Assembly: GCA_029257065.1 (NCBI GenBank)
Contig: JARIDA010000076.1
Span: forward strand, 1-55,897
Reading direction: 5' to 3'
From: Tissierellaceae bacterium
Lineage (GTDB): Bacteria > Bacillota > Clostridia > Tissierellales > Tissierellaceae
Length of the DNA stretch: 55,897 nt
In this document: positions 17,852-50,831 of the stretch, one piece after another
How the letters are laid out: each line of letters opens with the position of its first letter
Position numbering within the stretch: the first letter of the stretch is position 1
Position numbers and translations under genes: made by a program
Notes under the pieces: model-generated
Told to the model about the DNA's origin: nothing
Seen by the model: only the letters and a program-made list of their open reading frames with translations
Databases searched by the model: none

Positions 17852-17876
17852 AATTTTACCTCCTATTTTTTATAAC

Positions 17877-18147: not shown

Positions 18148-18177
18148 AAAGATATAGGAGATATCTCCTATATCTTT
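18148..18177 (-). terminator. Terminator of binding-protein gene 1 (perfect palindrome)
   Basis: A 30-base perfect palindrome (AAAGATATAGGAGAT and its complement) with no unpaired loop bases and T-rich flanks, 33 bases after the stop codon at 18210. Confidence 0.7.
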
Positions 18178-18209
18178 AATTAACATATTATATAATTTTC
18201 ATTATTTAA

Positions 18210-19748: not shown

Positions 19749-19837
19749 ATTAGTAACCCCCCTGTTTAATTTAATATATTGATATAGTTTTCTAAATATT
19801 TAGTATTTTCAATATATTGTTTTTTTAATTAAATTTC

Positions 19838-19846
19838 ATTATACCA
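19838..19846 (-). promoter_or_regulatory. Second promoter candidate (extended -10) for binding protein 1
   Basis: On the minus strand TGGTATAAT forms an extended -10 (TGn plus TATAAT at 19838-19843), about 90 bases before the start codon at 19748. No good -35 accompanies it. It would give a shorter leader than the promoter at 19981. Apart from these two promoters and a terminator, the 373-base stretch 19749-20121 has no gene that I can see. Confidence 0.5.
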
Positions 19847-19980
19847 TAGTTTCCAACCAAATAAAAGTTTTTCTTTCAAACTCTCTTTTATAACTATGAT
19901 AATTTGATAATCTTCTATATATAATATTTTAATTTGAATTTTTAAAAATATTACAATTTTCAGAATCATCATTTTTTAGT

Positions 19981-20009
19981 ATAATATAACTTTAATTTAT
20001 CTTTGTCAA
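19981..20009 (-). promoter_or_regulatory. Strong sigma-A promoter for binding protein 1
   Basis: On the minus strand a perfect -35 TTGACA (20004-20009), a 17-base spacer, and -10 TATTAT (19981-19986). The leader to the start at 19748 would be about 225 bases, AT-rich and without an obvious riboswitch. Confidence 0.75.
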
Positions 20010-20051
20010 GCTTATTTCTATTTTATATATTTTGTTTTCCCATTGTATAAA

Positions 20052-20083
20052 AAAAGCTATTAGTCAATTGACTAATAGCTTTT
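20052..20083 (-). terminator. Terminator of binding-protein gene 2 (perfect palindrome)
   Basis: A 32-base perfect palindrome (AAAAGCTATTAGTCAA and its complement) with A/T runs on both sides, so it could act on both strands. It separates the binding protein 3-2 unit from the binding protein 1 promoter. Confidence 0.8.
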
Positions 20084-20121
20084 TATAATCTACCCATACA
20101 TTTTACCGTCTTTATTATCCT

Positions 20122-21654: not shown

Positions 21655-21682
21655 TAAATCACTCCTATTTTATTTTTTGATT

Positions 21683-23209
21683 TTATTCTTCGAAATAAAC
21701 ATTTTTCAATACATGGGATCCTGCTGGATGTACTCTAAATCCTTTAATATATTTTTGCGTTCCAGCATTTACCATTTTATGAAATAATAATACATTTGGT
21801 GAATCTTCTAAAAGTATTTGTTGAGCTTCTTTATATAACTCTTTTCTCGTTTCAGGATCACTTTCTTTAGAAGCTGCCTTTACTAATCTATCAAATTCTT
21901 CATTTGAATAGAAAGTTCTATTTCCTGCCTCACCATGATTTTCTGATAGATATGGTGATGATAGTCCATAATCAGCATCTCCAGTATTTGCTGACCATCC
22001 TAACATAAACATTTCATGTTCTCCTCTAGCAGTTGCATCTAAATAAGCTCCCCATTCTAAAGTTTGGACTCTTGTATCTATTCCAATGGCTTTTAATTGA
22101 CCTTGGATTAACTCAGCAATTCTAACCCTAACACCACTATCATTGGTCATTATTGACGTTTCAAATCCATCTGGGTATCCTGCTTCAGCAAGTAATTCTT
22201 TTGCTTTTTCTGGATTATATTCATATCTTTTAACATCTGTTGTAGCACCAAATACATCTTTTTGTAGAGGAGTTAATGCAACTTCTCCATCTCCTTCAAC
22301 TACTGCCTCTATAATCTCTTCAACATTAACAGCATAATTCAATGCTTGTCTAACTCTTATATCATTAAAAGGCTCTTTTAAGTTGTTTAAACCTAAATAA
22401 TCCACTGAAAATGATGGCTCAGATATATAAACTAAGTTTTCATCTTCCGATAATTTTTTAATATCTATTGGATCTATATCGTAAGATATATCTATTTCAC
22501 CAGTTTCAATTCCCAATGTTCTACTAGTTCCTTCAGTTACATTTTTAAAAGTTAAATATTTAACTTTTGCCTCTTCGCCAAAATATTCATCATTTCGCTC
22601 AAGTTCAATACTGTCTCCTGTTGTCCAGTTAACAAATTTAAATGGACCTGTTCCCATTGGCCTTTGACCGTAGTCTTCACCTGCTTCTTCTACAGATTTT
22701 TGATTTAATATACCTGTACTACCATGACTTAAATGTGCAATTATAGCTGCAAATGGCTCATCTAAATTCATTATTATCTTATTATCTTCTATTACTTCTA
22801 CACTTTTAACCAATTCTAATATATGAGATACAGTTGGAGATTCCATATGTCTCTCAATAGTAAACTTAACATCTTCTGGTGTCAATTCATCACCATTGTG
22901 GAATTTAACTCCTTCTCTTATTTTAAATTCCCAAGTTAAATCATCAATTTGTTCCCAAGATTCTGCTAATCCTGGTTCAAGTTCCATATCTTCTGTTAAT
23001 ACTACTAAAGTATCATAAATTTGTCTCATAACTCTGGCAGATGGTTGATCGTTCCCCGCTTGTGGATCAAGTGTAGTTGCATCTGCACCTTGTGCTACAA
23101 TTAAATCTTCCTTGCTTTCAAGATTTGTTTCTCCACCACCACAAGCTGTCAAGGCAAGGGCTAATGATAATACTAATATTAATAATGATGCTCCTTTTTT
23201 AATGTTCAA
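21683..23209 (-). CDS. Oligopeptide-binding lipoprotein, SBP_bac_5 family, paralog 3
   Basis: 508 aa. Signal peptide with lipobox LTACGGG (Cys near residue 23). SBP family 5 motifs: DATTLDPQAGND, KIREGVKFHNGDELTPEDV, GTGPFKFVNW, AEAGYPDGFE. First gene of a two-gene unit with paralog 2, ended by the palindrome at 20052. The start is TTG at 23207-23209 with AGGAGTG eight bases upstream. The 213-base upstream gap has AT-rich promoter-like sequence but no clear consensus pair. Confidence 0.92.
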   Translation of the reverse strand: MNIKKGASLLILVLSLALALTACGGGETNLESKEDLIVAQGADATTLDPQAGNDQPSARVMRQIYDTLVVLTEDMELEPGLAESWEQIDDLTWEFKIREGVKFHNGDELTPEDVKFTIERHMESPTVSHILELVKSVEVIEDNKIIMNLDEPFAAIIAHLSHGSTGILNQKSVEEAGEDYGQRPMGTGPFKFVNWTTGDSIELERNDEYFGEEAKVKYLTFKNVTEGTSRTLGIETGEIDISYDIDPIDIKKLSEDENLVYISEPSFSVDYLGLNNLKEPFNDIRVRQALNYAVNVEEIIEAVVEGDGEVALTPLQKDVFGATTDVKRYEYNPEKAKELLAEAGYPDGFETSIMTNDSGVRVRIAELIQGQLKAIGIDTRVQTLEWGAYLDATARGEHEMFMLGWSANTGDADYGLSSPYLSENHGEAGNRTFYSNEEFDRLVKAASKESDPETRKELYKEAQQILLEDSPNVLLFHKMVNAGTQKYIKGFRVHPAGSHVLKNVYFEE

Positions 23210-23963: not shown

Positions 23964-24692
23964 TTATCTACCCCTATAAGCCTTTTCATCTACTATTACA
24001 GTAACATTTGGATGTATTCTTAAAAAAGATACTGGTAACTTTGTGGTTACTCGTTTCTCATTTAAAAGAGCATTTATAGGCTTATGCTTATTAACCCCAT
24101 TGGCCATTAATATTATTTTTTTAGATTTTAATATTCCAGCCATTCCCATTGTAATAGCAGTTTTAGGCACATCATCTATTGATTCAAAAAATCTTGAATT
24201 AACTTCAATTGTTGACTGGGCAAGATTGGCTATATTAGTACATGTATTTAAATATTCACCAGGCTCATTAAATGCAATATGTCCATCTTCTCCTAATCCT
24301 AGTAACATTAAATCTATTCCTCCAGATTCTTCTATTCTCCTATCGTAATCTTCACAAAATTTTTCTAAATCAGTTGCTTTTCCATTTGGTATATTAATAT
24401 TCTCTGATTTTATATTGATATGATTGAAAAGATTTTCATTCATAAAACATCTATAGCTGCTTTCATCTTCTTCAGACAGACCAATATACTCATCTAAATT
24501 AAATGTTACAACCTTACTAAAATCTATATTGTTATTTTTATATTCTGCTATAAGTCTTTTATATAATCCTTTTGGTGTACTTCCAGTTGCTAATCCTAAA
24601 ACTATTTCTGGATTTTTATTTATCTCATCAATGTACATTCTACAAGCCAATTCGCTCATTTCATCATAATCTTTTGATATTATTAATTTCAT
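23964..24692 (-). CDS. nagB: Glucosamine-6-phosphate deaminase
   Basis: 242 aa from the ATG at 24690-24692; a GTG three codons upstream is also possible. It converts glucosamine-6-phosphate to fructose-6-phosphate plus ammonia. Motifs: LGLATGSTPKGLY (phosphate loop), FNLDEYIGL (catalytic Asp), LLGLGEDGHIAFNEPG (catalytic His and Glu), and VTTKLPVSFLRIH. The C-terminus carrying the allosteric site in E. coli is short. No nagA or PTS gene is adjacent. The upstream phosphoesterase ends 12 bases before the ATG, so the three genes 25400-23423 form one operon. Confidence 0.95.
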   Translation of the reverse strand: MKLIISKDYDEMSELACRMYIDEINKNPEIVLGLATGSTPKGLYKRLIAEYKNNNIDFSKVVTFNLDEYIGLSEEDESSYRCFMNENLFNHINIKSENINIPNGKATDLEKFCEDYDRRIEESGGIDLMLLGLGEDGHIAFNEPGEYLNTCTNIANLAQSTIEVNSRFFESIDDVPKTAITMGMAGILKSKKIILMANGVNKHKPINALLNEKRVTTKLPVSFLRIHPNVTVIVDEKAYRGR

Positions 24693-24704
24693 ATTTTCCA
24701 CCCT

Positions 24705-28428: not shown

Positions 28429-29097
28429 ATGAAAAATTATGGAGTATTTGATATATTAGGACCAATAATGGTTGGACCTTCTAGCTCACATACTGCAGGT
28501 GCTGCTAGATTGGGTAATCTTGCAAGAATAATTGTTGGAAAACCTTTTAGTAGAGTAGACTTTTATCTTCATGGATCTTTTGCCAAAACAATGGCTGGAC
28601 ATGGAACTGATAAAGCTCTATTAGCAGGAGTTTTAGGTATGAGACCTGATGATGAAAATCTTTCAAAATCCTTTGAAATTGCAAAAGAAAAAAATATTAA
28701 TTTTACATTTGAAGAAAAAGATTTAGGATATACTCATTCAAATACTGTAAAATTTGTATTTACATTGGCAAAGAATAAAAAATTCCATGTTACTGGCTCC
28801 TCTATTGGTGGTGGCAATGTTTTAATCACGAATATAGATGGAACAGAAATAGAGTTTTCTGGAAGTAAACCTACTATTTTAGTTAGAAATAGAGATACCA
28901 AAGGTGTTATTGCTCATATAAGCACTATATTAGCAACTTCAGAAGTAAATATAGCTACTATGAATGTAGTTAGAAATAAGGATATAGCCACAATGGTTAT
29001 TGAGGTTGATTCTAATATTGAAGAGAGTTTAATAAATAAAATAAGTGAATTAAAAGATATTATTTATATTAAGGGAATTAATCCGATTAAGGAGTGA
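28429..29097 (+). CDS. sdaAB: L-serine dehydratase, iron-sulfur dependent, beta subunit
   Basis: 222 aa. Partner of SdaAA in the two-subunit [4Fe-4S] serine dehydratase that deaminates L-serine to pyruvate and ammonia. The N-terminal domain has the family motif GPIMVGPSSSHTAGAARLG at residues 11-29 and GHGTDKALLAG. The C-terminal ACT domain (about 150-220) opens with LVRNRDTKGVIAHI. Four bases separate it from sdaAA. It feeds pyruvate to the PFOR encoded earlier in the window. Confidence 0.96.
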   Translation: MKNYGVFDILGPIMVGPSSSHTAGAARLGNLARIIVGKPFSRVDFYLHGSFAKTMAGHGTDKALLAGVLGMRPDDENLSKSFEIAKEKNINFTFEEKDLGYTHSNTVKFVFTLAKNKKFHVTGSSIGGGNVLITNIDGTEIEFSGSKPTILVRNRDTKGVIAHISTILATSEVNIATMNVVRNKDIATMVIEVDSNIEESLINKISELKDIIYIKGINPIKE

Positions 29098-29101
29098 GTA
29101 A

Positions 29102-29968
29102 GTGTTTGATAGTGGGAAAACATTGCTAGAACTTTGTTCTGATAATAATAAATCAATATGGGAAATAACAGTTAAGAGTGAAATAAAAAATACTGGGATA
29201 GACGAAAATACTCTTATAGATAAATTGAGAGAAATTCTTATAGTCATGGAAGAATCTGCTTTAATAGGCTTGGATAGAGAAATCAATACTATGGGTGGCC
29301 TTTTAGATAATGATGCTATTAAATTAGAGCAATATAAAAAATCAGGCAAAACATTTTCTGGGGAATTTATATTAGATGCCGTGGCAAAATCCTTATCTGT
29401 TTCACAAGTAAATGCATCTATGGGTAAGGTTGTTGCAGCTCCTACTGCTGGTGCAGCTGGAATAATGCCTGCTATTTTGTTTTCAAATAAAAAAAATCAT
29501 TCTTTTAATGAAAAAGATATGATTAAAGGACTACTTACCTCTTCTGCAATAGGTCAAATAATAGCAAAGAAGGCTACTGTGTCTGGAGCTGAGGGTGGAT
29601 GCCAAGCCGAATGTGGTTCTGCTGCGGCAATGGCTGCGGGAGCTTTGGTTGAAATGGTTAATGGAACGCCAGAACAGGTTTTGCATGCTGCCTCTTTTGC
29701 ACTGACCAATATTATGGGTCTTATTTGTGATCCAATTGCAGGTCTTGTTGAGTATCCATGTGCTTTAAGAAATACTTCTGGAGTTACTAATGCATATTTA
29801 TCTGCTGATTTAGCTCTTTCAGGAATGAAATCATTGATTCCATTTGATGAAGTGGTTGAGTCTATGTTTGAAGTAGGTAATTTAATGCCTTCCTCACTAA
29901 AAGAAACAGCCTTAGGTGGCCTTGCCACAACACCAACTGGTGAAATGATTAGAGATAAATTAAAATAA
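29102..29968 (+). CDS. sdaAA: L-serine dehydratase, iron-sulfur dependent, alpha subunit
   Basis: 288 aa. Catalytic subunit. Substrate loop APTAGAAGIMPA near residue 115. The cluster-binding cysteines are in GGCQAECGSA near 170 and in LICDPIAGLVEYPCALRN near 205-225, all present. Start codon GTG at 29102-29104, with AAGGAG eight bases upstream overlapping the end of sdaAB. The operon ends in a strong terminator shared with the convergent MATE gene. Confidence 0.96.
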   Translation: MFDSGKTLLELCSDNNKSIWEITVKSEIKNTGIDENTLIDKLREILIVMEESALIGLDREINTMGGLLDNDAIKLEQYKKSGKTFSGEFILDAVAKSLSVSQVNASMGKVVAAPTAGAAGIMPAILFSNKKNHSFNEKDMIKGLLTSSAIGQIIAKKATVSGAEGGCQAECGSAAAMAAGALVEMVNGTPEQVLHAASFALTNIMGLICDPIAGLVEYPCALRNTSGVTNAYLSADLALSGMKSLIPFDEVVESMFEVGNLMPSSLKETALGGLATTPTGEMIRDKLK

Positions 29969-38536: not shown

Positions 38537-39277
38537 CTATTTATAATTATAATTTTTTATTATCTTTTCTATCTCTTCTAAATTTCTGATCCCATCTTCT
38601 ATATCTCTGTCTATTAAAATAGTCTTTATACCTAATTCTTTGCAAGCATTTATTTTATCTCTAGTTCCACCATTGCTGCCACTATCTTTTGTCACACAAT
38701 AATCTACTTTATAATTTTGAAATATGGATTTATTAAATTCTTTTGAAAAAGGTCCTAACATTGCAACTATATCATTCATACTTACATTACTATTATTAGC
38801 CTGTTCTATACTGGGTATAGTTGGTAATATTCTATATATAAATCTATTATCTCCTCTTACTTTTTCAAAATCTTTAATATTTTTTGAGCCAGTAGTAAAA
38901 AATACTACTCCTTCTATATTTTTTAAATATTTATAAGTCTGTTCATAATTTTCCAAATAAATAATATCATCTTCATTATCCATTTTTTCTCTAACATATC
39001 TAATATATTTTACTCTTTTATCTTTTGCGATTTTCTTTGCATTTTCAGATACTATATCTGCATATGGATGGGTCAGGTCAATAATTAAACTTATACCCTT
39101 ATCTTCTATTAATCTTCCCATATCCTCAATATCCAGTCTGCCCACTATAACTCTATCCGTATCTATAAATTCTCTTGCATCCTCTGTGGCTACAGTAACT
39201 ATAAAATTATCCATATAATCCTTTATTCTGGATACAATTTCTCTAGCTTCGCTAGTTCCTCCAATAATCCAAATCAT
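38537..39277 (-). CDS. cbiJ: Precorrin-6A / cobalt-precorrin-6A reductase
   Basis: 246 aa (CobK/CbiJ). NAD(P)H-dependent reduction of the corrin ring. Opens with the characteristic IWIIGGTSEARE; DLTHPYAD and the C-terminal KDSGSNGGTRDKI are family signatures. Its ATG overlaps the cbiH stop by four bases, so translation is coupled. Confidence 0.93.
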   Translation of the reverse strand: MIWIIGGTSEAREIVSRIKDYMDNFIVTVATEDAREFIDTDRVIVGRLDIEDMGRLIEDKGISLIIDLTHPYADIVSENAKKIAKDKRVKYIRYVREKMDNEDDIIYLENYEQTYKYLKNIEGVVFFTTGSKNIKDFEKVRGDNRFIYRILPTIPSIEQANNSNVSMNDIVAMLGPFSKEFNKSIFQNYKVDYCVTKDSGSNGGTRDKINACKELGIKTILIDRDIEDGIRNLEEIEKIIKNYNYK

Positions 39278-39996
39278 TTTATATTGTATCCTCTTGGAGT
39301 TATAATTTTATTATTTTTTATATAGGTATTACTATTTCCAATTATTAAAACTGTAAGCATATCAATTTCTTCATAATCTATATCTCCTAATGTTGTAACT
39401 TTAACCTTAGTTCCTGGTCTTCCAGAGTCTCTTACTATTCCTACTGGTGTTTCACTATTTCTATATTTAGAAACTAATTTCAATGCTTCTTCTAAATGGT
39501 CTGGTCTTCCTTTGGATCTTGGATTATAAAGTGTAATTACAAAATCAGCTTCTGCAGCTTTGTCCATTCTCTTTAATATAACTTCCCATGGAGTCATAAG
39601 GTCTGACAAGCTTATAGATGCATAGTCATGCATAATTGGAGAACCTAGCTCTGCGGCTGCAGAAAAAGCTGCTGTTACCCCTGGTATAACTTCTACATCC
39701 ACCCCATTAGTTAATTCCATTATTGGACCTGCCATTCCATAAAGACCTGCATCTCCAGTACTCACTATGGAAGTTGTTTTCCCTTCCTTTAATAGCTCTA
39801 CTGCTTTTTTACATCTCTCTATTTCTCCTCGCATACCCGTGGAAAATATTTCTTTACCATCTACCCAATCTCCTAAATACTCTATATAAGGAGTATATCC
39901 TACAACTGCATCACTATTTTTTATAGCTTCTACTGCTTTAAAAGTCATATTTTCTTTGCCACCTGGTCCTATTCCAACTACGTATAATTTACTCAT
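39274..39996 (-). CDS. cbiH: Precorrin-3B C17-methyltransferase (cobalt-factor III)
   Basis: 240 aa. SAM-dependent tetrapyrrole methylase: VVGIGPGGKENMT at the N-terminus, STGDAGLYGMAG near residue 80, PGVTAAFSAAAELG, and TLYNPRSKGRP. Performs C17 methylation with ring contraction. No extra C-terminal Fe-S domain. One base separates it from cbiG. Confidence 0.94.
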   Translation of the reverse strand: MSKLYVVGIGPGGKENMTFKAVEAIKNSDAVVGYTPYIEYLGDWVDGKEIFSTGMRGEIERCKKAVELLKEGKTTSIVSTGDAGLYGMAGPIMELTNGVDVEVIPGVTAAFSAAAELGSPIMHDYASISLSDLMTPWEVILKRMDKAAEADFVITLYNPRSKGRPDHLEEALKLVSKYRNSETPVGIVRDSGRPGTKVKVTTLGDIDYEEIDMLTVLIIGNSNTYIKNNKIITPRGYNIK

Positions 39997-39997
39997 T

Positions 39998-41011
39998 CTA
40001 TTCTCCTTTTGTCTTTGATATGGATATGGTTATTCCATTATGTTTAGATTTTCTACTTATCATATTTTTTCCCATTATATAAGCTACTGGTTCTGAAACA
40101 GAATAAACTCCTATAGTCTTTTTAACAAAATCCGATCCTTCAAACATATAATCAATCTTTCCAACCTCTTCCAGACTATATATATTTAAAGGTACTTGGA
40201 AATATTTTGCTGATTCTATTATTCCAATTTCATCTTGTTTTACTTCAATAGTTCCCATTTCTCTAATTCCTTCTAAAAGTAGATTGTTCTCCTCAAAGGA
40301 ATCCTCAATTGCCTGTATAATTCTACTCTTCTCCACACCCCTTCTACAACCTATACCAATATTAATATTTCTAGGAATAAGTTGAGTATGTGGAATATTG
40401 AATTCATCTTTTATTTTATCTGAACTTATAATTATTAAACCATGAATATCCTTATCAATTTTATTTAAATCTTCTATTTCAAATAGATTATTATAATCTA
40501 TTTTATTTTTATCCTCTGTATAGAAGCCTATTTTTTTACCATTTACCATTAAGGAGGTAATAGTGGTAATACTTTTCATATCCATCATGTAATAATTATT
40601 TCTCTTTGCAAATATATCTACAGATTCTATTCCTCTTCCATCTGTAGCGGTAGTTATTACTCCAACTGTTCCCATGTTTTTTGAAATATAATCAGTTAAA
40701 TCATTTGCTCCACCAATATGTCCTGAAAGTAATGATATACAATATCTTCCTAAATCATCTATAACCAATATTGCTGGATCTTTTGTTTTATCCTGTATAT
40801 ATGGGTTTATATATCTTACAGCAATACCTGTTGCTGATATGAATATAAATCCATCATAATTATTCCAATTTTCCTTTAGAAAAGACTTTATTCCACCCTT
40901 ATGGTTTGAATTTTTTATATGTGTAAAAGAATATTTTTCATTCCCTAAATTTAGGATTTTATCTCCTATTTCAGCACCTTTATCTGTGAAAGAAAGGCAA
41001 GCTATTCTCAT
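39998..41011 (-). CDS. cbiG: Cobalt-precorrin-5A hydrolase
   Basis: 337 aa. Opens the delta-lactone ring and releases acetaldehyde. Three CbiG regions are visible: N-terminal domain with FISATGIAVRYINPYIQDK, SGHIGGANDLTDYI, and a C-terminal domain with GIGCRRGVEK. Its ATG overlaps the cbiF stop by four bases. Confidence 0.95.
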   Translation of the reverse strand: MRIACLSFTDKGAEIGDKILNLGNEKYSFTHIKNSNHKGGIKSFLKENWNNYDGFIFISATGIAVRYINPYIQDKTKDPAILVIDDLGRYCISLLSGHIGGANDLTDYISKNMGTVGVITTATDGRGIESVDIFAKRNNYYMMDMKSITTITSLMVNGKKIGFYTEDKNKIDYNNLFEIEDLNKIDKDIHGLIIISSDKIKDEFNIPHTQLIPRNINIGIGCRRGVEKSRIIQAIEDSFEENNLLLEGIREMGTIEVKQDEIGIIESAKYFQVPLNIYSLEEVGKIDYMFEGSDFVKKTIGVYSVSEPVAYIMGKNMISRKSKHNGITISISKTKGE

Positions 41012-41763
41012 TTTATTCCATCTCTATATTCATGAGTAAAAGTTGGGTCATATAATTTAGACCTTTCATAGGCTCCTTGAATAAAATTACCTACTAGTAT
41101 CTGTGCTGTTTTATTTATTCCTTCTGATTTTACCCTTTCAGCTATATCTTTTAAAGTTCCTATTATAATTTTTTCATCTTCCCAACTAGCCTTATATACA
41201 ACTGCAACTGGAGTATCTTCTGAACCATATCCTTCTATTAACTCTTCAACCACTGTATCTATGTCTTGAACAGATAGAAATATTGCCATAGATGCTTTAT
41301 GTTTTGCTAATTTCACTAAATTCTCTTTTTCAGGCACTGGAGTTCTTCCTTTAATTCTTGTTAATATAATTGTCTGAGTTACATCTGGTAATGTAAACTC
41401 TCTCTTTATAGCCGCACCTGCTGCTGTAAAGGAACTCACTCCTGGTACTACTTCAAAGTCTATCTCCTTTTCCTCTAATATATCCATTTGCTCTCTGATA
41501 GCACCATATATAGTTGGATCTCCTGTATGTAATCTAACTATTTTTTTATCCTGTGCATATCCCTCTTCCATAACTTCAATAACTTCTTCCAGTGTCATTC
41601 CAGCAGAATTGTACCCTTCCACATCTTCCTTACAAAAATCTAAATGCTCTTTCGAAACCAAAGAACCTGCATAAATCACTATATCTGCTTCTTCTAAAAG
41701 TCTTCTCCCCTTTAGAGTTATTAATTCCACATCTCCTGGCCCTGCCCCTACAAAACTTATCAT
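41008..41763 (-). CDS. cbiF: Precorrin-4 C11-methyltransferase
   Basis: 251 aa. N-terminal [15 protein letters not shown], then [12 protein letters not shown] near residue 78, and [13 protein letters not shown]. Motifs are those of CbiF/CobM. Overlaps cbiT by four bases. Confidence 0.95.
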
Positions 41764-42308
41764 TTTTTCACTCCTTTAATTATAAAAATAGGATTTTCTC
41801 CCTTTAATAGTCCTATACCATCCATATATGCTGCTTGTATCATATGTGTTTCTATGTCTTTATATTTATATTTCTCTAATAACTGAGAAAACTCATTTAA
41901 ATTTTTAAGCATTATAAAATTTCCGCATACTAAGCCATCTTTTTCTAAATTATTTTCCAAATACTGAAATATATTTCCAAGCTCTCCTTTACTTCCACCA
42001 ATAAATACTTTATTAAATTTCTTCTTAGGTAGATCTTTTGGAGCTCTTCCCTGTATTAAATCTATATAAGTATTAAATTTCTCACTATTTTTTCTTATAA
42101 GAGTAATTCCTTCTTCTTCAGTTTCTATAGCCGTTACTTTGGCTCCTTGCAAACTTGCTTCAATGGATATGGAACCGGTTCCAGCTCCAATATCTAGGAA
42201 TCTGTCACCATCATGTATATTCATATGAGCTATTGTAAGCATTCTCACATTGAATTTTGTCATAGGAATATTTCCCCTAATAAATCCCTCATCTTTAATC
42301 CATTTCAT
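41760..42308 (-). CDS. cbiT: Cobalt-precorrin-6B C15-methyltransferase (decarboxylating)
   Basis: 182 aa. Class I SAM methyltransferase: FLDIGAGTGSISIEAS near residue 37 binds SAM, and FIGGSKGELG marks the CbiT group. It methylates C15 and decarboxylates the C12 acetate. Opens with KDEGFIRGNIPMTK, the usual CbiT N-terminus. Overlaps cbiE by 14 bases; CbiE and CbiT are separate proteins here rather than fused as CobL. Confidence 0.94.
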   Translation of the reverse strand: MKWIKDEGFIRGNIPMTKFNVRMLTIAHMNIHDGDRFLDIGAGTGSISIEASLQGAKVTAIETEEEGITLIRKNSEKFNTYIDLIQGRAPKDLPKKKFNKVFIGGSKGELGNIFQYLENNLEKDGLVCGNFIMLKNLNEFSQLLEKYKYKDIETHMIQAAYMDGIGLLKGENPIFIIKGVKK

Positions 42309-42897
42309 TTTTTATCACCACTACTGCCAAAGGTGAAAAGTCTTCTAATTCCTCACCTATTTTTATATTAACTATATTCTCATCTTTATAGGACAGATTA
42401 TAGCCTACATACATTTCCCCTTCAATACCTAGCTCCTCTAATCCTCTAGATATTTCACTTGGTGTATTTTTCTTATCTGTAAGACAAATTGTCAAAGGGT
42501 AATCTTTCACACTATCCAAAGACTCTTCTCTTCCATGTAATGATAATAAATTTGCCTCTTCCCAAGCTTCACCTAATTTTGCCATCATATATTGAAAGGA
42601 TGATAATCCTGGTAATATCTCCTTTATTTCAACTTGATTTCTTTTCAAATAATTTGTTATACCATAGAAATTTGGATCTCCAGAGGCTAATAACAATATA
42701 TCTTTATCTCTATTGGCTTTTATAATATCTAAAACTTCTGCCACTCTGCTAACCCTAATAATATCTGATCTAATTGGCTTAATACTATCTCCAATTCTTC
42801 CAAAGGCTATTAGTATTTCTGCTTGCTCTATTCTCTCTTTAACCTGAAATGTTAAGTATTTAGGATTCCCTGGTCCTCCTCCAGCTATTGTTAACAT
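42295..42897 (-). CDS. cbiE: Cobalt-precorrin-7 C5-methyltransferase
   Basis: 200 aa tetrapyrrole methylase. N-terminal IAGGGPGNPKYLT, then LASGDPNFYGI near residue 73 and LPGLSSFQYMMAKLG. Methylates C5; works with CbiT. Overlaps cbiD by seven bases. Confidence 0.93.
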   Translation of the reverse strand: MLTIAGGGPGNPKYLTFQVKERIEQAEILIAFGRIGDSIKPIRSDIIRVSRVAEVLDIIKANRDKDILLLASGDPNFYGITNYLKRNQVEIKEILPGLSSFQYMMAKLGEAWEEANLLSLHGREESLDSVKDYPLTICLTDKKNTPSEISRGLEELGIEGEMYVGYNLSYKDENIVNIKIGEELEDFSPLAVVVIKNEMD

Positions 42898-43967
42898 AAA
42901 TTAACACCTCTTTCCATAGAATAAATTATTACTTCGATTTCCATCTCTCTATCTTTAATATATGTCCTTATTCTTTCGGCTGATCCCTTCTCCATTAGAC
43001 TTACTATTTCCCCATATCCATTATCTATACAGATATTTAAAGCTTCTTCTGCTGTAAGAGTAGCATCTATCTTTTTAATTAATTCTATTGGTGCTTCCAT
43101 ATGAGCTAAATAATAAATGAATGCTTCCATTCTTGCATCTGAAACTTTGCTATGAGTATTAAAGATTCCTATTGCTAATTTGGCAAATTTTCCAATATGT
43201 CCCACTAAAGTTATAGATTTAAAACCTTTTTTATAAGCATATGTCAAACCCTCTCCAATATAATTAGATATTTTAACACTAGGATTAGTCTTACCTATTT
43301 CTTTTGCAATATTTTCTCCATAATTTCCTGGTACCAGAATAATATTATCCAAACCAAAATTCTCTCTTATCATGTCTATCTCTAAATATATAGTATCTAG
43401 TAGAGCTTTTTCTGACATAGGGTAAACAATTCCTTTTGTTCCTATTATGGAAATTCCACCCTCAATTCCAATATTAGAATTAAATGTCTTTCTTCCAATA
43501 GCTTCTCCTTCTGGAGCATAAATCAATACATTATATCCAGAATCACTTATCTTAGACAGTTCTTTTTTTATCATCTGCCTTGGAACTGGATTAATAGCTG
43601 CTTCACCTACTTTTCCAAATAATCCTTTTTTGCCTATTCTTCCTATTCCAATTCCACCTTCAATTATAATTTCTTTTCTACTATTTTTTTCCACTTGAGC
43701 AAATATTTTAATTCCATCCGTATTATCTGGATCATCTCCTGCATCCTTTATAATAGAGCAGGACACTTTTTTAGATTCTATATTAATATCATTTACCTTT
43801 AATCTTAAATCTATTCCTGCTGGCGTGTCTATTTGAACATAGTCTATCTCTTCTCCGGTTTCCAACATTATGGCACATGCTTTCGCTGCTGCTGTGGCAC
43901 AACTTCCCGTTGTGTATCCACATCTTAAATTTTCACCATCTTTTACTACAAATAAATCTAATTCCAT
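42891..43967 (-). CDS. cbiD: Cobalt-precorrin-5B C1-methyltransferase
   Basis: 358 aa. Anaerobic-pathway C1 methylase with its own fold. N-terminal LRCGYTTGSCATAAAKA is diagnostic, followed by GGIGIGRIGKKGL, GTKGIVYPMSEKA and VGHIGKFAKLAIG. Stop/start overlap TAATG with cbiC. Confidence 0.95.
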   Translation of the reverse strand: MELDLFVVKDGENLRCGYTTGSCATAAAKACAIMLETGEEIDYVQIDTPAGIDLRLKVNDINIESKKVSCSIIKDAGDDPDNTDGIKIFAQVEKNSRKEIIIEGGIGIGRIGKKGLFGKVGEAAINPVPRQMIKKELSKISDSGYNVLIYAPEGEAIGRKTFNSNIGIEGGISIIGTKGIVYPMSEKALLDTIYLEIDMIRENFGLDNIILVPGNYGENIAKEIGKTNPSVKISNYIGEGLTYAYKKGFKSITLVGHIGKFAKLAIGIFNTHSKVSDARMEAFIYYLAHMEAPIELIKKIDATLTAEEALNICIDNGYGEIVSLMEKGSAERIRTYIKDREMEIEVIIYSMERGVNLC

Positions 43968-44587
43968 TATCTTCCTGCAACCATATAAAGAAGTGCATTT
44001 ACTATTGAAGCTGCTACATTACTACCACCCTTGTATCCAACTGTAGTTATTGAAGGTATATCAAATTCTCTTAAATATTCTTTGGATTCTGCTGCACCTA
44101 TAAATCCTACAGGCACACCTATTATAAACTTAGGATCTAGTCTTCCTGCTTTTACATGCTCTAAGATTCTGAAAAGAGCTGTTGGAGCATTACCAATTAC
44201 AAAAGCATCTATTCCCTCTTCAACTGCTATGTCTATGGCACAAGCTGATCTTGTGGTTTCTAATTCTTTAGCCATTTGGAAAACTCTCTCATCATCTATA
44301 TAGCAAGCCAGTTCACAATTAGCTCTTTCCAGTGCTGGTTTGTTGATTCCCATAAAACCCATTCTAGTATCTGTGTATATTGTAGTTCCTTTTTCTATCT
44401 CTTCTTTAGCTATTTGAATAAAATTATTTTTAAACTCTATAATCTTTCTATATTCAAAATCACCTGTAGTATGAATCATTCTCTTAGCTATTATCATTTC
44501 CTCTTCACTGAAATTAGTATCACCCATAACCTCGTCAATTACATCCATACTTTTATTTTCTATTTCCATTGGATTTTTTATATACAT
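43967..44587 (-). CDS. cbiC: Precorrin-8X / cobalt-precorrin-8 methylmutase
   Basis: 206 aa. Moves a methyl group from C11 to C12. Motifs: catalytic His in IHTTGDFEY near residue 40, TRMGFMGINKPAL, GNAPTALFRILE, and GVPVGFIGAAESKE. The start at 44585-44587 is preceded by AGAGG and lies one base after the cbiA stop; a longer frame would overlap cbiA. Confidence 0.95.
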   Translation of the reverse strand: MYIKNPMEIENKSMDVIDEVMGDTNFSEEEMIIAKRMIHTTGDFEYRKIIEFKNNFIQIAKEEIEKGTTIYTDTRMGFMGINKPALERANCELACYIDDERVFQMAKELETTRSACAIDIAVEEGIDAFVIGNAPTALFRILEHVKAGRLDPKFIIGVPVGFIGAAESKEYLREFDIPSITTVGYKGGSNVAASIVNALLYMVAGR

Positions 44588-44588
44588 T

Positions 44589-45902
44589 TTAGCGCCTCTT
44601 TTCTTGTTCAATATTATTAAATAAGTTTTCTAATATATGCATATTTCCTAAAAAGTTAATATGCTGGTAATATCCAATCATATTTTTATACATATATCCA
44701 CATTTCCAATCTCTATTACTCATAGGCTTAGTTATTTCAAATATATTTTCTTCTGAAGAATGTATCTCAGATTTATGATATTCATTTCCTACTAAAATAG
44801 TCTTTGCTGGTCCATAAATTGTATCCTTTTTAGTCTCAATATTAACATATCCAAATCTTTTAAGTTTATCAGTCATAACTGACTTACCTTCAATTAATCC
44901 TACCATTTTTTCACCTTCTATAGAATTAGTTAGATACATTAAGGCCCCACCTTCTGCTATTAAATATCCATCTTTTTCCACATACTCTCTTATAGACTCC
45001 ATCATTGAATGATTTTCAGAAAGTTCTTTAGAGTAAAGTTCAGGATATCCTCCTCCTATATATATAAGATTAGCCTCTGGTATTTTTTCATCTCTAAGTG
45101 GAGAGAAATATTCTACTTGGCAAGTTTCTTCTAATATTTTCAAATTTTCACTATAGTGAAAATTAAAAACTTCATCACTGGCTATTCCTAATATTATATC
45201 TCTTTTTTTAGGATAAATATAATTTTCATATTCTACTATTCTACTTAGTTTCAAAATCTCATCTAAATCCACTGTCTCTTCCATAATATGTGCCAGTTTA
45301 GCTATTAATTCTTCTTTTTCTCTATCAGTATAACTATCATCCAAACCTAAACTTCTACTTTCTAATTTAAGTCTATCGTCTAATGGCACATATCCTAATA
45401 CCTTAATTCCAATATATTTTTCTATCTGTTCTTTTAAATATATATACATCATTTTACTAGTTTTATTTAAAATTACACCACTTATTTTAGACTCCTGAAA
45501 ATCAACCATTCCCTTTATCTTCGGAATTGCTGAAAACATTTCTCCTTTCGGAGTATAGACCAAGATTGAAGGTATATCTAATTCTCTAGATATATCATAG
45601 CTAGAATTTTCAAAAGTATTTCCAATACCATCAAAATATCCCATAGCTCCTTCAACAATTCCTAATTCACCAGAATTCATAGCTATGGCATGCCTAATTC
45701 CATCTTTCCCTTGTATATGCATATCCAAATTTCCTGCTGTTTTCTTTGCAGCTAGCCCTAAATACTTTGTATCCAGAAAGTCTGGTCCTGTCTTAAAAGC
45801 AGAAATATCTATTCCTCTGTTTTTTAAAGCTCTTATAATTCCTAAAGTCAATGTTGTTTTACCTGTATTACTAGAAGGAGCAGTTATCATAATCATATTC
45901 AT
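44589..45902 (-). CDS. cbiA: Cobyrinate a,c-diamide synthase with lost catalytic cysteine
   Basis: 437 aa from the ATG at 45900-45902; a TTG three codons earlier is possible. The N-terminal dethiobiotin-synthetase-like ATPase domain is intact: TAPSSNTGKTT near residue 9, KTGPDFLD, VEGAMGYFDG. The C-terminal class I glutamine amidotransferase domain keeps its fold (LIYIGGGYPELY) and His (GNEYHKSE, normally GHEFHYS). The nucleophile motif AECGGLMYL reads AEGGALMYL: codon 44949-44951 is GGT (Gly) where Cys is required. Glutamine hydrolysis should be impossible; amidation of the a and c side chains would then need free ammonia. No frameshift or stop; surrounding residues are conserved. Confidence 0.92.
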   Translation of the reverse strand: MNMIMITAPSSNTGKTTLTLGIIRALKNRGIDISAFKTGPDFLDTKYLGLAAKKTAGNLDMHIQGKDGIRHAIAMNSGELGIVEGAMGYFDGIGNTFENSSYDISRELDIPSILVYTPKGEMFSAIPKIKGMVDFQESKISGVILNKTSKMMYIYLKEQIEKYIGIKVLGYVPLDDRLKLESRSLGLDDSYTDREKEELIAKLAHIMEETVDLDEILKLSRIVEYENYIYPKKRDIILGIASDEVFNFHYSENLKILEETCQVEYFSPLRDEKIPEANLIYIGGGYPELYSKELSENHSMMESIREYVEKDGYLIAEGGALMYLTNSIEGEKMVGLIEGKSVMTDKLKRFGYVNIETKKDTIYGPAKTILVGNEYHKSEIHSSEENIFEITKPMSNRDWKCGYMYKNMIGYYQHINFLGNMHILENLFNNIEQEKRR

Positions 45903-45918
45903 TATTATCAACTCACTT

Positions 45919-46701
45919 TTATAGTATATCTTCTAAATGCTCTAAAAACATTTCTCTAATCCTATCTATTTCTCCTAATCCTGATATGGTTGCTTCTACT
46001 TCAAACCCCTCTTTTCCCAAGATAGTTTTCCAAGAGTCATCCTCATCAGATGCCATATCATTAACCGCATGGTCTCCTGCTACCAGCATAAATGGTCTTA
46101 ACTCCACTTTTTTGATCCCCCTAGATTTCAATTCTCCTATTATATCTTCTATACCTATTGCACCTTCTACTGTTCCAACAAATATATTTTCATCTTTTTT
46201 TGTTTTTTCAAATTTATCCTGCAATCTAGCATATGCTCTATCAGCCTCATGATAGGACCCATGACCCATAAATATAAGTGCTCTCTCAGATTTATATTCC
46301 TCTAGTTGTAAAGCGTCTATAACACTTTCATAATCTTTTTCTTCAGCTAATAAAGGTAATCCTATTTTTACATTATAATCTTCATTTGCATCTATAAACT
46401 TCTCAATTTCTTTTTTTGTTTTATCATATTCAACACCTTCAATTATTAATAATGGTTGAATATATATATCCTTAATTTCTTTTTTCTTCATCTCTTCTAA
46501 AGCTTCTGTAGGATTCTTTACTATATATCCTCTATCTTTTAATCTCTTAGCTACTATTCTAGATGTAAATGCTCTTAAAACTAAATCATCAGAGTATCTC
46601 TCTCTTGCTAAATCTTCAACTGGCTCTATACATAATTTTCTTGTCTTTTCAAATGTAGTTCCAAAACTGGTAATTATTATTCCTCTATTCAAATTATTCA
46701 T
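45919..46701 (-). CDS. cbiK: Sirohydrochlorin cobaltochelatase
   Basis: 260 aa. Class II chelatase of the CbiK type that inserts Co2+ into sirohydrochlorin (factor II). N-terminal IIITSFGTTFEKTR, the metal-binding His of FMGHGSYHEADRAY near residue 146, and the second His of LVAGDHAVNDMASD near residue 208. No signal peptide, so the cytoplasmic form. The gap to cbiA is 7 bases from the TTG or 16 from the ATG. Confidence 0.95.
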   Translation of the reverse strand: MNNLNRGIIITSFGTTFEKTRKLCIEPVEDLARERYSDDLVLRAFTSRIVAKRLKDRGYIVKNPTEALEEMKKKEIKDIYIQPLLIIEGVEYDKTKKEIEKFIDANEDYNVKIGLPLLAEEKDYESVIDALQLEEYKSERALIFMGHGSYHEADRAYARLQDKFEKTKKDENIFVGTVEGAIGIEDIIGELKSRGIKKVELRPFMLVAGDHAVNDMASDEDDSWKTILGKEGFEVEATISGLGEIDRIREMFLEHLEDIL

Positions 46702-46707
46702 CTCCTC

Positions 46708-47754
46708 TTATAGTTCAATTTCTCTTAATGCTTTTATAAAATTAACATTGTTCTCTCTGTCCTTTATTGCTATTCTTATATGATTTTTTCCTAAACTTCT
46801 AAAAGATGAACACTTTCTTATTACAAAACCTCTTTTAAGTAAGGATTCAAATATCTGGTCTTCAGTTTTATTCTCTAATCTTATTAAAATATAATTCGTG
46901 TGAGTGTTAAAGGCTTTTAGTCCCTCTATTTTTTCTAATTCATCTAATAAAAAACTTCTCTCCTGATGTATATATTTTTTGGACTTTTGGATATATTCTT
47001 TATCTTTAAAAATATATCGACCTGCTGTTTCTGCCAAGCTATTTACACTCCAAGGCATACTAAGACTTTCAATTTTTTCAGCCATTTCTCTAGAGACACA
47101 TCCATATCCTAATCTTAAACCTGGTATAGCAAAGAACTTGGTCGCTGCTCTTATTATTCCCACATTCTTATATCCATCTGATTTAAATAGTCTAATGCTA
47201 TCATAGTCCTCTGGAGCAAATTCGAAAAATGCTTCATCCAAAAGCATATATGCTCCTCTAGATTGTACTAATTTATATATTTCAATCAGTTTATCCTCTT
47301 CTATTCTAAGTCCAGTTGGATTATTAGGATTTCCTATTATCAATAAATCTTTTTCACTTAATATATCCTCTAATTTTTCTAAATCCACTTGGAAATCTTC
47401 TGTATATCCTATTTCAATAACCTGTTTACCATGAACTTGTCCTCTTAATTTATATTCTATAAATGCAGGCTCTGTTGTAATCACTCTATCTGCCCATAAA
47501 TTAAAAAGATCAATAATTTCCATAGCACCATTTCCAACAAGTATATTTTCTATTTCACATCCTAAATATTCTCCTATGGATTTTTTTAACTCTCTATATT
47601 CAATGTCAGGATAGGCTTCTATAGATTGAAAATTATTAAAAACCTTCCCCTTTAATCCTTCTGGGATACCTAGTGGATTGATATTACTACTATAATCCAC
47701 TAAATCTCCATCGAAATAATCTTCATATGATAAAAGGTCTCCTCCATGTATCAT
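46708..47754 (-). CDS. cobD: L-threonine-O-3-phosphate decarboxylase-like aminotransferase
   Basis: 348 aa PLP enzyme of fold type I (CobD/CobC). It makes the (R)-1-amino-2-propanol O-2-phosphate linker. Motifs: DYSSNINPLGIP at the N-terminus (family signature), VGNGAMEII, GNPNNPTGL, LLDEAFFEF, and the PLP Lys in RAATKFFAIPGLRLGYG. It lacks the C-terminal Zn-finger extension of some CobD proteins. Histidinol-phosphate aminotransferase is the main alternative, but context favours B12. It follows cbiL by 15 bases. Confidence 0.9.
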   Translation of the reverse strand: MIHGGDLLSYEDYFDGDLVDYSSNINPLGIPEGLKGKVFNNFQSIEAYPDIEYRELKKSIGEYLGCEIENILVGNGAMEIIDLFNLWADRVITTEPAFIEYKLRGQVHGKQVIEIGYTEDFQVDLEKLEDILSEKDLLIIGNPNNPTGLRIEEDKLIEIYKLVQSRGAYMLLDEAFFEFAPEDYDSIRLFKSDGYKNVGIIRAATKFFAIPGLRLGYGCVSREMAEKIESLSMPWSVNSLAETAGRYIFKDKEYIQKSKKYIHQERSFLLDELEKIEGLKAFNTHTNYILIRLENKTEDQIFESLLKRGFVIRKCSSFRSLGKNHIRIAIKDRENNVNFIKALREIEL

Positions 47755-47769
47755 TATCTCACTCCTATT

Positions 47770-48435
47770 CTAATTATTTCTTCTTCCCAATATTAAGGAT
47801 ATATAATCTTTATCCTCTAATATTTCTTCTTTTTCAGTAAGTATTTCTTGCATCTCTAGTGTGGCTCTTTTTATATATGTGTAATTAAAATCAGCCTCTT
47901 CTAGCATTTCAATTGTTTTTTCCTTGTTTTTAAAAGTTTTAAGTATGGCAATTGAATCTACCAATTGAAGTTTTTCTGGAGTTAATTCATCACAAAGCAC
48001 AAAATCATCATCCTTTACTGTTAATGGGGACTGACTCTCTCCTGCTGCTGCAACAAAAGATGGAATTCCTGAAACCACTTCTATCTCCATATTAGTAAAT
48101 TTCTTTTCCAACTCTTCTATAATATAAATAAAAGTTGAATAAATCATAGGATCTCCTATTGTTAAAAAAGCTCCTGATTCTCCTTCTGGTATTTCTCTTT
48201 CTATAATCTCTGCAGCTCTCTTATAGTCTTCTCTAGTAACTTCTCCCATAGGAAAGTCTATTAATACCAATTTCTTATCCTTAATAAATTCTTCCGCTGT
48301 GTCTATTGCCATATTTTTCCCATTATTATTTGGTCCAAATATTACACTTGCCTCTTCCATTGCTTTTACTGCTTTTAATGTTAAATAATCACTATCTCCC
48401 GGACCTGTACCTATTCCATAAATCTTTTTATTCAT
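47770..48435 (-). CDS. cbiL: Precorrin-2 / cobalt-factor II C20-methyltransferase
   Basis: 221 aa tetrapyrrole methylase. IYGIGTGPGDSDYLTLKA at the N-terminus is typical of CbiL; LTIGDPMIYSTFIYI and GIPSFVAAAGE follow. I start at the ATG at 48433-48435, with GGAGGG 11 bases upstream. A frame 12 codons longer would start inside the riboswitch terminator and is rejected. First gene of the riboswitch-controlled operon. Confidence 0.93.
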   Translation of the reverse strand: MNKKIYGIGTGPGDSDYLTLKAVKAMEEASVIFGPNNNGKNMAIDTAEEFIKDKKLVLIDFPMGEVTREDYKRAAEIIEREIPEGESGAFLTIGDPMIYSTFIYIIEELEKKFTNMEIEVVSGIPSFVAAAGESQSPLTVKDDDFVLCDELTPEKLQLVDSIAILKTFKNKEKTIEMLEEADFNYTYIKRATLEMQEILTEKEEILEDKDYISLILGRRNN

Positions 48436-48456
48436 TTTTATATTTCCCTCCAAAAT

Positions 48457-48485
48457 AAAAAATCCCGACACTGTCGGGATTTTTT
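48457..48485 (-). terminator. Riboswitch expression-platform terminator
   Basis: Perfect 14-base stem (AAAAAATCCCGACA and its complement) around a single base, ending in TTTTTT on the minus strand, placed between the cobalamin aptamer and the cbiL ribosome binding site. This is the usual layout of a transcriptional off-switch. Confidence 0.9.
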
Positions 48486-48499
48486 ATATATTTATAATA

Positions 48500-48665
48500 C
48501 AATATACACCTCTCCCACCGAAAGGTTCTCAATTTTACCTTTTAGTATCCTGGCTTAGCTTCATCCTAATCTCTACCTTCCCAATATTTAAATTAGTGGT
48601 CTTTTGATTTCGTCAACTATACAGTAGCGGGGGCTGCATTGGCTTTTCACCAATTTCCTAATATA
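48500..48665 (-). ncRNA. Cobalamin riboswitch aptamer
   Basis: On the minus strand the conserved B12-box core is unmistakable: GGTGAAAAGCC, then GCAGCCCCCGCTACTGT (complement of 48621-48638), a CCACTA element, and AGCCAGGATAC (around 48545-48555). Boundaries are approximate. When adenosylcobalamin or a related corrinoid binds, the downstream terminator at 48457 should form and stop transcription of cbiL through the Cys-rich gene. The 309-base stretch 48436-48744 contains only this control region. Confidence 0.95.
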
Positions 48666-48693
48666 CGATAAATTTTCTATTTAATTTTATATA

Positions 48694-48722
48694 ATTTTAA
48701 CACACTTTACTATTTATTACAA
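48694..48722 (-). promoter_or_regulatory. Promoter of the riboswitch-controlled B12 operon
   Basis: On the minus strand, -35 TTGTAA (48717-48722), 17-base spacer, -10 TAAAAT (48694-48699). Transcription would begin about 25 bases before the aptamer. Confidence 0.65.
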
Positions 48723-48744
48723 TAATATCAGATATTCATATTGG

Positions 48745-49017
48745 TTATTCTCCATCGTGATGAGGATTATTCTTAACTATTTCAGCTGCCTTAATAATTT
48801 CTTTTGCTAAATCCACATCAAGCTGTTGACTTAATCTATCCAATTTAGCATATAATAATCCTTCTTTTGTAACAACATATTTCGGTGCTAAATTATTAAG
48901 TGCAATAGCCATAATATCCAATTTACATTTTTCACAAGTACATATATGTCCACAATCCACTAATATTTCATCCATTACATCAGCTACACATTTCTCCATT
49001 AAATTATGTAATTTCAT
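48745..49017 (-). CDS. comFB: ComFB-family late competence protein, Zn-binding type
   Basis: 90 aa, full family length. Cys residues in VDCGHICTCEKCKLDIMAIALN (residues 22-33) form the metal site known from Bacillus ComFB, followed by the conserved NLAPKYVVTKEG. Some ComFB proteins bind cyclic dinucleotides; whether this Cys-rich form does is not known. It lies 37 bases after cbiB and just before the riboswitch promoter, so it is probably the last gene of cobQ-cbiB-comFB. Confidence 0.85.
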   Translation of the reverse strand: MKLHNLMEKCVADVMDEILVDCGHICTCEKCKLDIMAIALNNLAPKYVVTKEGLLYAKLDRLSQQLDVDLAKEIIKAAEIVKNNPHHDGE

Positions 49018-49054
49018 TTTATACCTCCTGCTAAGTTATTAGTTTAATAATTAT

Positions 49055-49990
49055 CTAATTAAAAATATTTATGATAGTAAAATATATTGCTATAAATACT
49101 ATCTCTGTCCTATACATAATCCTTATTGTATCTTTAATATATTCTTTATTTATTTTATTTTCTCCATCTCCCATTGTTGGTTTTTCCACTAATTTCCCAT
49201 GATAAATATTTGATCCACCTAATTCAATTCCCAATAACCCTGCAACTGCTGATTCTGGATATCCTGCATTAGGGCTAGCATGATTTTTCCTATCTCTAAT
49301 CATTATTCTAAATCCATTTTTTACATCATATTTAAATATAGAGGACAATATCATAATTATTCCTGTTATTCTTGCAGGAATATAATTGTAAAGGTCATCA
49401 ATTATTGCTGCCCATTTTCCATAATTGATATATTTTTCATTTTTATAACCAAGCATAGAATCCATAGTATTAACCATTTTATACATAAGTCCTCCAGGAG
49501 CACCAAAAAGCATTATGAAAAATAATGGAGCTATTATTCCATCAGAAGTGTTTTCTGACACTGTTTCTATTGTTGCCTGAATTATGCTCTCCTGATTTAA
49601 ATTGGAAGTATCTCTTCCCACAATAAATGCTAATTGATATCTAGCTTTTTCCAATCCATATTTTAGTGAATTGTAAACCTTTGTCGCTTCAATATCTAAA
49701 GATTTTGCGGAAATACATGTATAAATCATATAAATTTTTACTATTCTCATTAATAAGGGGATAGGACTTAATATTTTTAAAATAAAATATCCTAAAGAAA
49801 AACTAATTATAATATTAAAAACAGCTACTAATAATCCTGCAAATCTTAATGCTTTTCCACTTTTTATATTTCTCCTAATAAGATTATCTTCAAAGTTTAT
49901 TAAATTACCCATTGCTTTTACTGGATGTGGAAAATTATATGGATCTCCCAGTATTAAATCTACTATCACAGCTGTAAATATATCTAACAT
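49055..49990 (-). CDS. cbiB: Adenosylcobinamide-phosphate synthase
   Basis: 311 aa integral membrane protein with several hydrophobic segments. Attaches the aminopropanol (phosphate) linker to adenosylcobyric acid. Family signatures: DLILGDPYNFPHPVKAMG near residue 11, GRDTSNLN, ETVSENTSDGIIAPLFF near 143, and RDRKNHASPNAGYPESAVAG near 235. Its ATG is one base after the cobQ stop. Confidence 0.95.
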   Translation of the reverse strand: MLDIFTAVIVDLILGDPYNFPHPVKAMGNLINFEDNLIRRNIKSGKALRFAGLLVAVFNIIISFSLGYFILKILSPIPLLMRIVKIYMIYTCISAKSLDIEATKVYNSLKYGLEKARYQLAFIVGRDTSNLNQESIIQATIETVSENTSDGIIAPLFFIMLFGAPGGLMYKMVNTMDSMLGYKNEKYINYGKWAAIIDDLYNYIPARITGIIMILSSIFKYDVKNGFRIMIRDRKNHASPNAGYPESAVAGLLGIELGGSNIYHGKLVEKPTMGDGENKINKEYIKDTIRIMYRTEIVFIAIYFTIINIFN

Positions 49991-49991
49991 A

Positions 49992-50831
49992 TTACATACC
50001 TACTAGAGAATATATTAATTCCATATCTAGATTTTCTCTTAATACCCGAGATAGTTTTTTGAATTCCTCTTCTAACTCTTCATCTGTCTGTGGATTTTCA
50101 TTACATATTTTATCATAATCAGCTAAAGTATCTTCATCCACCAGTTCAAAATGAGTAAATGGAATTGTTCCTATCACTGGTATATTCAACATATCTTCAA
50201 TCATTTTTATTCCCGGATTTAATAAGGTTTTATCTCCTCTAAATTTATTTATTACAAGTCCTTTTATTCTATCTCTTTCTTTCTCTTCCAGCAGCATTAC
50301 TGTTCCATAAAGAGAAGCGAATACTCCTCCTCTGTCTATATCTGCCACTAATATTACTGGTGAATCTGCCATTTCAGCCATTCCCATATTCACAATATCA
50401 TTTTCTTTTAAATTTATTTCAGCTGGACTACCTGCTCCCTCAATAACTACAATATCATTTTCACTTTCTATTTCTTTATAAATATTTTGAATCATTGGTT
50501 TTAATTCATTTTTATATTCAAAATACTCTACAGCTTCCATTTGATCCTTCTCTTCTCCTAGTAAAATTACTCTTGATCCCATATCTGTTAAAGGATTTAA
50601 AAGTATAGGATTCATTCTTGGATCTGGTTTTATCCCTGCTGCCATAGCTTGCAGTGCTTGAGCTGTACTCATCTTGTATCCTTCTTCTGTTATATGCATT
50701 TTAGATGACATGTTTTGAGATTTAAAAGGATACACCTTATGCCCATCCTCAGCAAATATTCTACAAAGGCCTGTTACTAAAAGTGATTTTCCTGCTGATG
50801 ATGCGGTTCCTTGTACCATTATACTTGTCAT
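49992..50831 (-). CDS. cobQ: Cobyric acid synthase lacking the glutamine amidotransferase domain
   Basis: 279 aa against about 490-510 for full-length CobQ/CbiP. Residues 1-235 are a complete N-terminal synthetase domain: [21 protein letters not shown] at residues 6-26, [45 protein letters not shown], and NKFRGD. After [10 protein letters not shown] (231-240) the protein goes straight to [21 protein letters not shown] (255-274), which resembles the last helix of normal CobQ proteins. The roughly 220-residue GATase_3 domain that should lie between is absent, with no stop or frameshift, so this looks like a clean in-frame loss. Amidation of b, d, e and g side chains would need free ammonia or a separate glutaminase. 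GAGGTGG ribosome binding site. Confidence 0.92.

Follow-up and report, generated by a model that had tools for sequence, protein, structure and literature searches.

The window, meaning the whole 55,897-nucleotide stretch of DNA analysed here, carries an anaerobic cobalamin (B12) cluster that runs from cbiJ to cbiP. Within this locus lie cbiA and, six genes upstream of it, cbiP, and both encode amidotransferases whose glutaminase half departs from the family pattern. The features considered below, all on the reverse strand, are as follows.

38537..50831, reverse strand: B12 locus with cbiJ, cbiH, cbiG, cbiF, cbiT, cbiE, cbiD, cbiC, cbiA, cbiK, a cobD-like gene, cbiL, comFB, cbiB, and cbiP (open reading frames and family matches)
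44589..45902, reverse strand: cbiA, predicted cobyrinate a,c-diamide synthase (ATG at 45900-45902; NCBIfam NF002204; relatives align from the same ATG)
45354..45893, reverse strand: CbiA synthetase domain, P-loop and dethiobiotin-synthetase-like (Pfam PF01656, 54.7 bits)
45351..45353, reverse strand: CbiA residue 184, Ser in the window, a candidate coupling residue (alignment columns)
44646..45188, reverse strand: CbiA GATase_3 domain, a predicted pseudo-glutaminase (PF07685, 90.9 bits; the genome's only GATase_3 match)
44949..44951, reverse strand: nucleophile-elbow codon GGT, Gly318 where Cys is expected (reading frame and alignment)
44775..44777, reverse strand: CbiA His376 of GNEYHKSE, conserved (alignment)
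44661..44663, reverse strand: CbiA His414 (YYQHINF), aligned with the dyad His and retained (alignment of close relatives)
49992..50831, reverse strand: cbiP, cobyric acid synthase of 279 aa without a GATase domain (NF001989 positions 2-237 of 480 only; no PF07685; alignment A3)
50664..50666, reverse strand: CbiP residue 56, Thr in the window (alignment columns)
50004..50084, reverse strand: CbiP C-terminal helices, beyond the excised GATase domain (alignment A3; AlphaFold2 helices 250-267 and 270-276)

Several other genes in the window were recorded in passing. A ComFB-like gene (PF10719) at 48745-49017 is inserted in the B12 locus between cbiL and cbiB. A glucosamine-6-phosphate deaminase gene (nagB) at 23964-24701 occurs in a genome with no detected GlmS-type GATase, and this enzyme, run backwards with ammonia, could replace GlmS. 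Oligopeptide transport genes with three peptide-binding lipoproteins and a two-subunit serine dehydratase (14029-23209 and 28429-29968) are fitting for an ammonia-releasing amino acid fermenter.

CbiA and its nucleophile position

Family membership marks the protein of the window as CbiA, with formation of cobyrinate a,c-diamide predicted: the whole protein matches the CbiA/CobB family model NF002204 at 359.6 bits against a cut-off of 254, and both the synthetase and the GATase_3 domain were found. The synthetase motifs GKT, KTGPD, and EGxMGYFDG are invariant among relatives in the alignment and the P-loop is conserved, in keeping with the view of the earlier note, made from the sequence alone, that the synthetase half is intact. 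The AlphaFold2 model (pLDDT 93.6) has two domains, a GATase half similar to GatD and other class I GATases and a synthetase half similar to dethiobiotin synthetase. A sequence search of the Protein Data Bank returned no solved relatives of CbiA or CbiP.

The nucleophile elbow, at 44943-44957, reads ...LIAEGGALMYL... in the minus frame, i.e., AEGGA, with Gly318 in place of the catalytic Cys of glutamine-hydrolysing CbiA/CobB. The replacement of the nucleophile by Gly, as the earlier note had claimed, was borne out, and relatives share the substitution. That note had also singled out the His of GNEYHKSE as retained; this residue (H376) is indeed conserved, but the catalytic position aligns with H414 in YYQHINF instead. 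We take H414 to be the position of the family's catalytic His, and none of the close relatives compared (24 Cys-less and 24 Cys-bearing) has lost it. CobB and CobQ share only Cys and His with triad GATases (PMC5871853), so loss of the Cys should abolish glutaminase activity. The suggestion that CbiA is unable to hydrolyse glutamine agrees with the sequence evidence, in which the nucleophile is gone and no replacement Cys is apparent.

Scanning with alignment A1 yielded 80 loci. The state of the nucleophile was read from the column of the CbiA alignment. In this column, 76 rows have Cys and a further 41 have Gly, Ala, or Ser, with some organisms represented twice; after removal of duplicates, 73 of the 106 distinct CbiA proteins have Cys and 33 have Gly, Ala, or Ser. 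The substitution is no isolated case. Ala was found in Tissierella praeacuta, T. pigra, Schnuerera, [Clostridium] ultunense, and Lutispora, and Gly in Gudongella, Neofamilia, Ezakiella, Tepidanaerobacter, and the window. Clostridium, Caloramator, Acetobacterium, Lachnospiraceae, and Bacteroidota have Cys, except that a single Lachnospiraceae-like row (L136) shows Gly. Sequencing error as the source of Gly318 was ruled out because the substitution recurs in relatives.

On a maximum-likelihood CbiA tree from which the columns of the trait itself were left out, the Cys state has to change seven times, and well-supported branches force five of these changes; since this tree is unrooted, the direction of change (loss) is read from Cys being widespread in the outgroups. 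Residue 184 covaries with the nucleophile. It is His in 76/76 Cys-bearing rows and is lost in 30/41 Cys-less rows, including two Cys-less CbiA proteins outside the main clade.

Another cysteine might act as the nucleophile instead. The only cysteines of the window CbiA, C261 and C401, both fall in the GATase domain, and C401 is found in 17/24 Cys-less close relatives. However, C401 also stands beside the normal nucleophile in all 24 Cys-bearing close relatives and thus does not qualify as a new one; it is also absent from Ezakiella and Neofamilia. The predicted secondary structure places neither residue in a strand-turn-helix elbow; a different nucleophilic Cys in the predicted structure would have refuted the earlier note. 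We rejected a replacement nucleophile on the conservation pattern and give it a minute probability.

Despite its missing nucleophile, the GATase domain of CbiA has kept 45 of 72 conserved positions. When synthetase identity is matched, Cys-less CbiA proteins fall ~3.5 to 10 points below Cys-bearing ones in the identity of the GATase domain, which indicates that constraint on the domain is mildly relaxed, not gone.

Glutaminase losses elsewhere in the genome

CbiP has lost the domain itself. Its synthetase domain matches NF001989 at 360.9 bits, and GATase_3 is absent both by PF07685 search and in alignment A3. The excision appears clean: in full-length relatives the GATase domain lies between the synthetase core and the C-terminal helix, two flanks that are still there in the short form. 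The AlphaFold2 model of the short protein (pLDDT 93.1) is dethiobiotin-synthetase-like, with a TM score of 0.73 by 1dbs length. CbiP lengths among relatives are bimodal (~280 to 300 versus 470 to 520 aa), and short CbiPs of many genera are 52 to 77% identical to that of the window. In a synthetase-core tree, four changes are needed to explain the short form, three of them forced, and its lineages are the main Tissierellales clade, Lutispora, G013/G020, and G035.

Arg56 of CbiP is present in 67/67 full-length proteins and in 0/44 GATase-less ones, being lost in all four short lineages, and Leu43 follows almost the same pattern. This recurrent loss suggests that the two residues served coupling to the GATase domain. 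Two further CbiPs could be intermediates towards excision: one of 434 aa with a decayed, Cys-less GATase region (L031) and one from Tepidanaerobacter that keeps the GATase region with the Cys lost from its elbow, GIGSSFS (L197).

The other amidotransferases found in the genome show comparable changes. CTP synthase (PyrG; contig 43, L202:592-2217) has the elbow GVGMGMQ in place of GICLGMQ, a Cys-to-Gly change with the His kept, and is the sole class I GATase above the Pfam cut-off elsewhere in the genome. GMP synthetase (GuaA; contig 123, L300:1690-2643), encoded directly behind guaB, is a 318-aa protein consisting of the ATPPase domain only. Family searches detected neither a class II GATase_6 domain nor glutamine synthetase in this genome, with controls positive in 14/14 genomes in each case. 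No stand-alone GATase_3 was found in it either, in a search that covered 21 genomes; its sole GATase_3 is CbiA's own. These absences rest on family searches of a genome that is 91.8% complete in 129 contigs, so any single one could be an assembly gap.

As judged from sequence, the glutaminase half is lost across three pathways in one genome, affecting two B12 steps, CTP synthesis, and GMP synthesis. These residue and domain losses, their recurrence, and the intact synthetase halves are established by the sequences. The losses took two routes: point loss of the nucleophile (CbiA and PyrG) and excision or loss of the domain (CbiP and GuaA). The scale is larger than the earlier note had claimed for CbiA, with CbiP, PyrG, and GuaA also having lost domain or nucleophile.

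Glutamine hydrolysis might still occur in trans if CbiA and CbiP received their ammonia from a separate glutaminase subunit, in the way that GatD supplies MurT. Two-subunit amidotransferases of the same fold exist in GatD/MurT (PMC5871853), and a Lutispora genome (G458) encodes a stand-alone GATase_3 protein of 253 aa. In the genome studied here, however, the only candidates are the dead GATase_3 domain of CbiA and the Cys-less PyrG, and in the single-contig relative G019 the search likewise found CbiA's GATase_3 as the sole one and none standing alone. We therefore regard a subunit acting in trans as very unlikely.

It is also conceivable that the B12 pathway is decaying and that CbiA and CbiP are products of dying genes. 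The lowered GATase-domain identity of Cys-less CbiA would suit this explanation, but no reading frame is broken, conservation of the synthetase motifs is strong, the cbi locus still runs from cbiL to cbiP, and the short CbiPs remain similar across many genera. Decay of the pathway consequently appears most improbable. A new role for the dead CbiA domain, such as glutamine sensing without hydrolysis, is in our judgment very unlikely as well. Such a role would account for the retention of the domain in CbiA, with many of its positions conserved, although CbiP and GuaA deleted theirs. However, we found no new conserved site, constraint is mildly relaxed, and a structural need or a protected ammonia path would explain retention equally well.

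Losses in relatives and the link with glutamine synthetase

Relatives are a mosaic for glutaminase losses. CTP synthase without the Cys was found in G002, G006, G010, G014, G021, G465, Neofamilia, and Tepidanaerobacter, and the Cys of PyrG is kept in Tissierella. Genomes whose GMP synthetase is without the Cys include G001, G032, [Clostridium] ultunense, and Tepidanaerobacter, and Tissierella is among those in which this enzyme has no GATase domain. Tepidanaerobacter sp. GT38, which lies outside the main clade, has independently exchanged the Cys for Gly in CbiA, PyrG, GuaA, and one of its two CbiPs.

Canonical glutamine synthetase is missing from 27/30 genomes with a short CbiP compared to 2/18 with a full-length one (P = 5e-8; Fisher's test, inflated by shared ancestry), and a phylogenetically controlled comparison of the two traits contains only two to three independent pairs, too few for a verdict. 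Among the relatives, it was not found in G019 and G032, both single-contig and 100% complete. Three genomes (G035, G042, and G055) have a short CbiP alongside canonical glutamine synthetase, and its loss is therefore not a prerequisite for the short form. In nine others (G009, G011, G013, G016, G018, G020, G023, G024, and G027), a divergent protein of 630 to 650 aa with a partial match to the glutamine synthetase catalytic domain was found instead of the canonical enzyme. Two studies describe glutamine synthetase as missing from C. ultunense, Syntrophaceticus schinkii, and Tepidanaerobacter acetatoxydans; they relate this to high ammonia and assign ammonium assimilation in these acetate oxidisers to glutamate dehydrogenase (PMC4374699, PMC5924567). 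In the literature, with thin coverage of subscription journals, we found no published description of matching glutaminase losses. What was known before is the missing glutamine synthetase in some of these bacteria; the matching glutaminase losses seen here appear to be new.

Free ammonia as the probable nitrogen donor

The synthetase half of such amidotransferases can use ammonia directly. A Plasmodium GMP synthetase with its catalytic Cys mutated lost glutamine activity and kept NH4Cl activity, with an improved Km (PMC9312489), and Cys mutants of Escherichia coli PurF still use ammonia (PMC3261824). Single-domain NAD synthetases are a further precedent (PMC3376133). We infer, with a probability of about 0.85, that CbiA is functional as a synthase, depends on ammonia, and carries a pseudo-glutaminase domain, and that it belongs to a genome-wide change in anaerobes of ammonia-rich settings, from glutamine to free ammonia. 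The synthetase domain would use ATP to activate the a and c carboxylates, which free ammonia from the cytosol would then attack in place of a channelled, glutamine-derived supply. The dead GATase domain would keep its fold and perhaps an ammonia entry path. The shared cause of the losses is most likely a permanent ammonia excess in amino acid-fermenting anaerobes.

The losses in all of the glutaminase synthetases found in the genome suggest that the whole cell has gone over to free ammonia. A stronger version, which we hold tentatively and at somewhat short of an even chance, is that in this organism, and convergently in G002, Neofamilia massiliensis, and G465, all remaining glutamine amidotransferases are ammonia-only and glutamine synthetase is gone, with glutamine for protein synthesis solely tRNA-made or imported; the families searched for glutamine-dependent enzymes in this genome were GATase_3, the class I GATases, and GATase_6.

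Glutamine is taken as the near-universal carrier of amide nitrogen. Considering that the same losses have arisen independently in other anaerobes, these bacteria may offer a natural experiment on why channelled ammonia persists elsewhere. Under the ammonia-dependent reading, glutamine analogues such as DON should fail to inhibit these enzymes, which may also provide compact, ammonia-driven catalysts for B12 production. As candidate residues, the covarying Arg56 of CbiP and His184 of CbiA point to the domain-coupling machinery of both enzymes.

In comparison with glutamine-hydrolysing CbiA/CobB, the window enzyme has the same two-domain architecture, synthetase motifs, operon context, and dyad His, but its catalytic Cys is replaced and the glutaminase half-reaction should be absent. 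CbiP likewise has the synthetase domain and C-terminal helix in common with cobyric acid synthase CbiP/CobQ (EC 6.3.5.10), but is 279 rather than ~490 aa long, has no GATase domain, and has lost the otherwise invariant Arg56. Single-domain, ammonia-dependent NAD synthetase likewise forms an amide with no glutaminase domain attached and draws on ammonia in vivo (PMC3376133), whereas ammonia is the presumed donor for the window enzymes. That single-domain form has been proposed to be ancestral (PMC3376133); for the window enzymes, repeated secondary loss of the domain or nucleophile is most likely. PurF' of Crenarchaeota is also an amidotransferase homologue without the catalytic Cys, often with Ala or Val in its place, and has been suggested to be ammonia-dependent. 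It belongs to class II and occurs beside an intact PurF (PMC3261824), whereas no intact copy was found in the genome studied here. Another related case is that of the high-ammonia syntrophic acetate oxidisers, for which the accessible portions of the papers report missing glutamine synthetase only, not the state of the amidotransferases (PMC4374699, PMC5924567); the glutaminase losses described here occur in C. ultunense and in a Tepidanaerobacter related to T. acetatoxydans.
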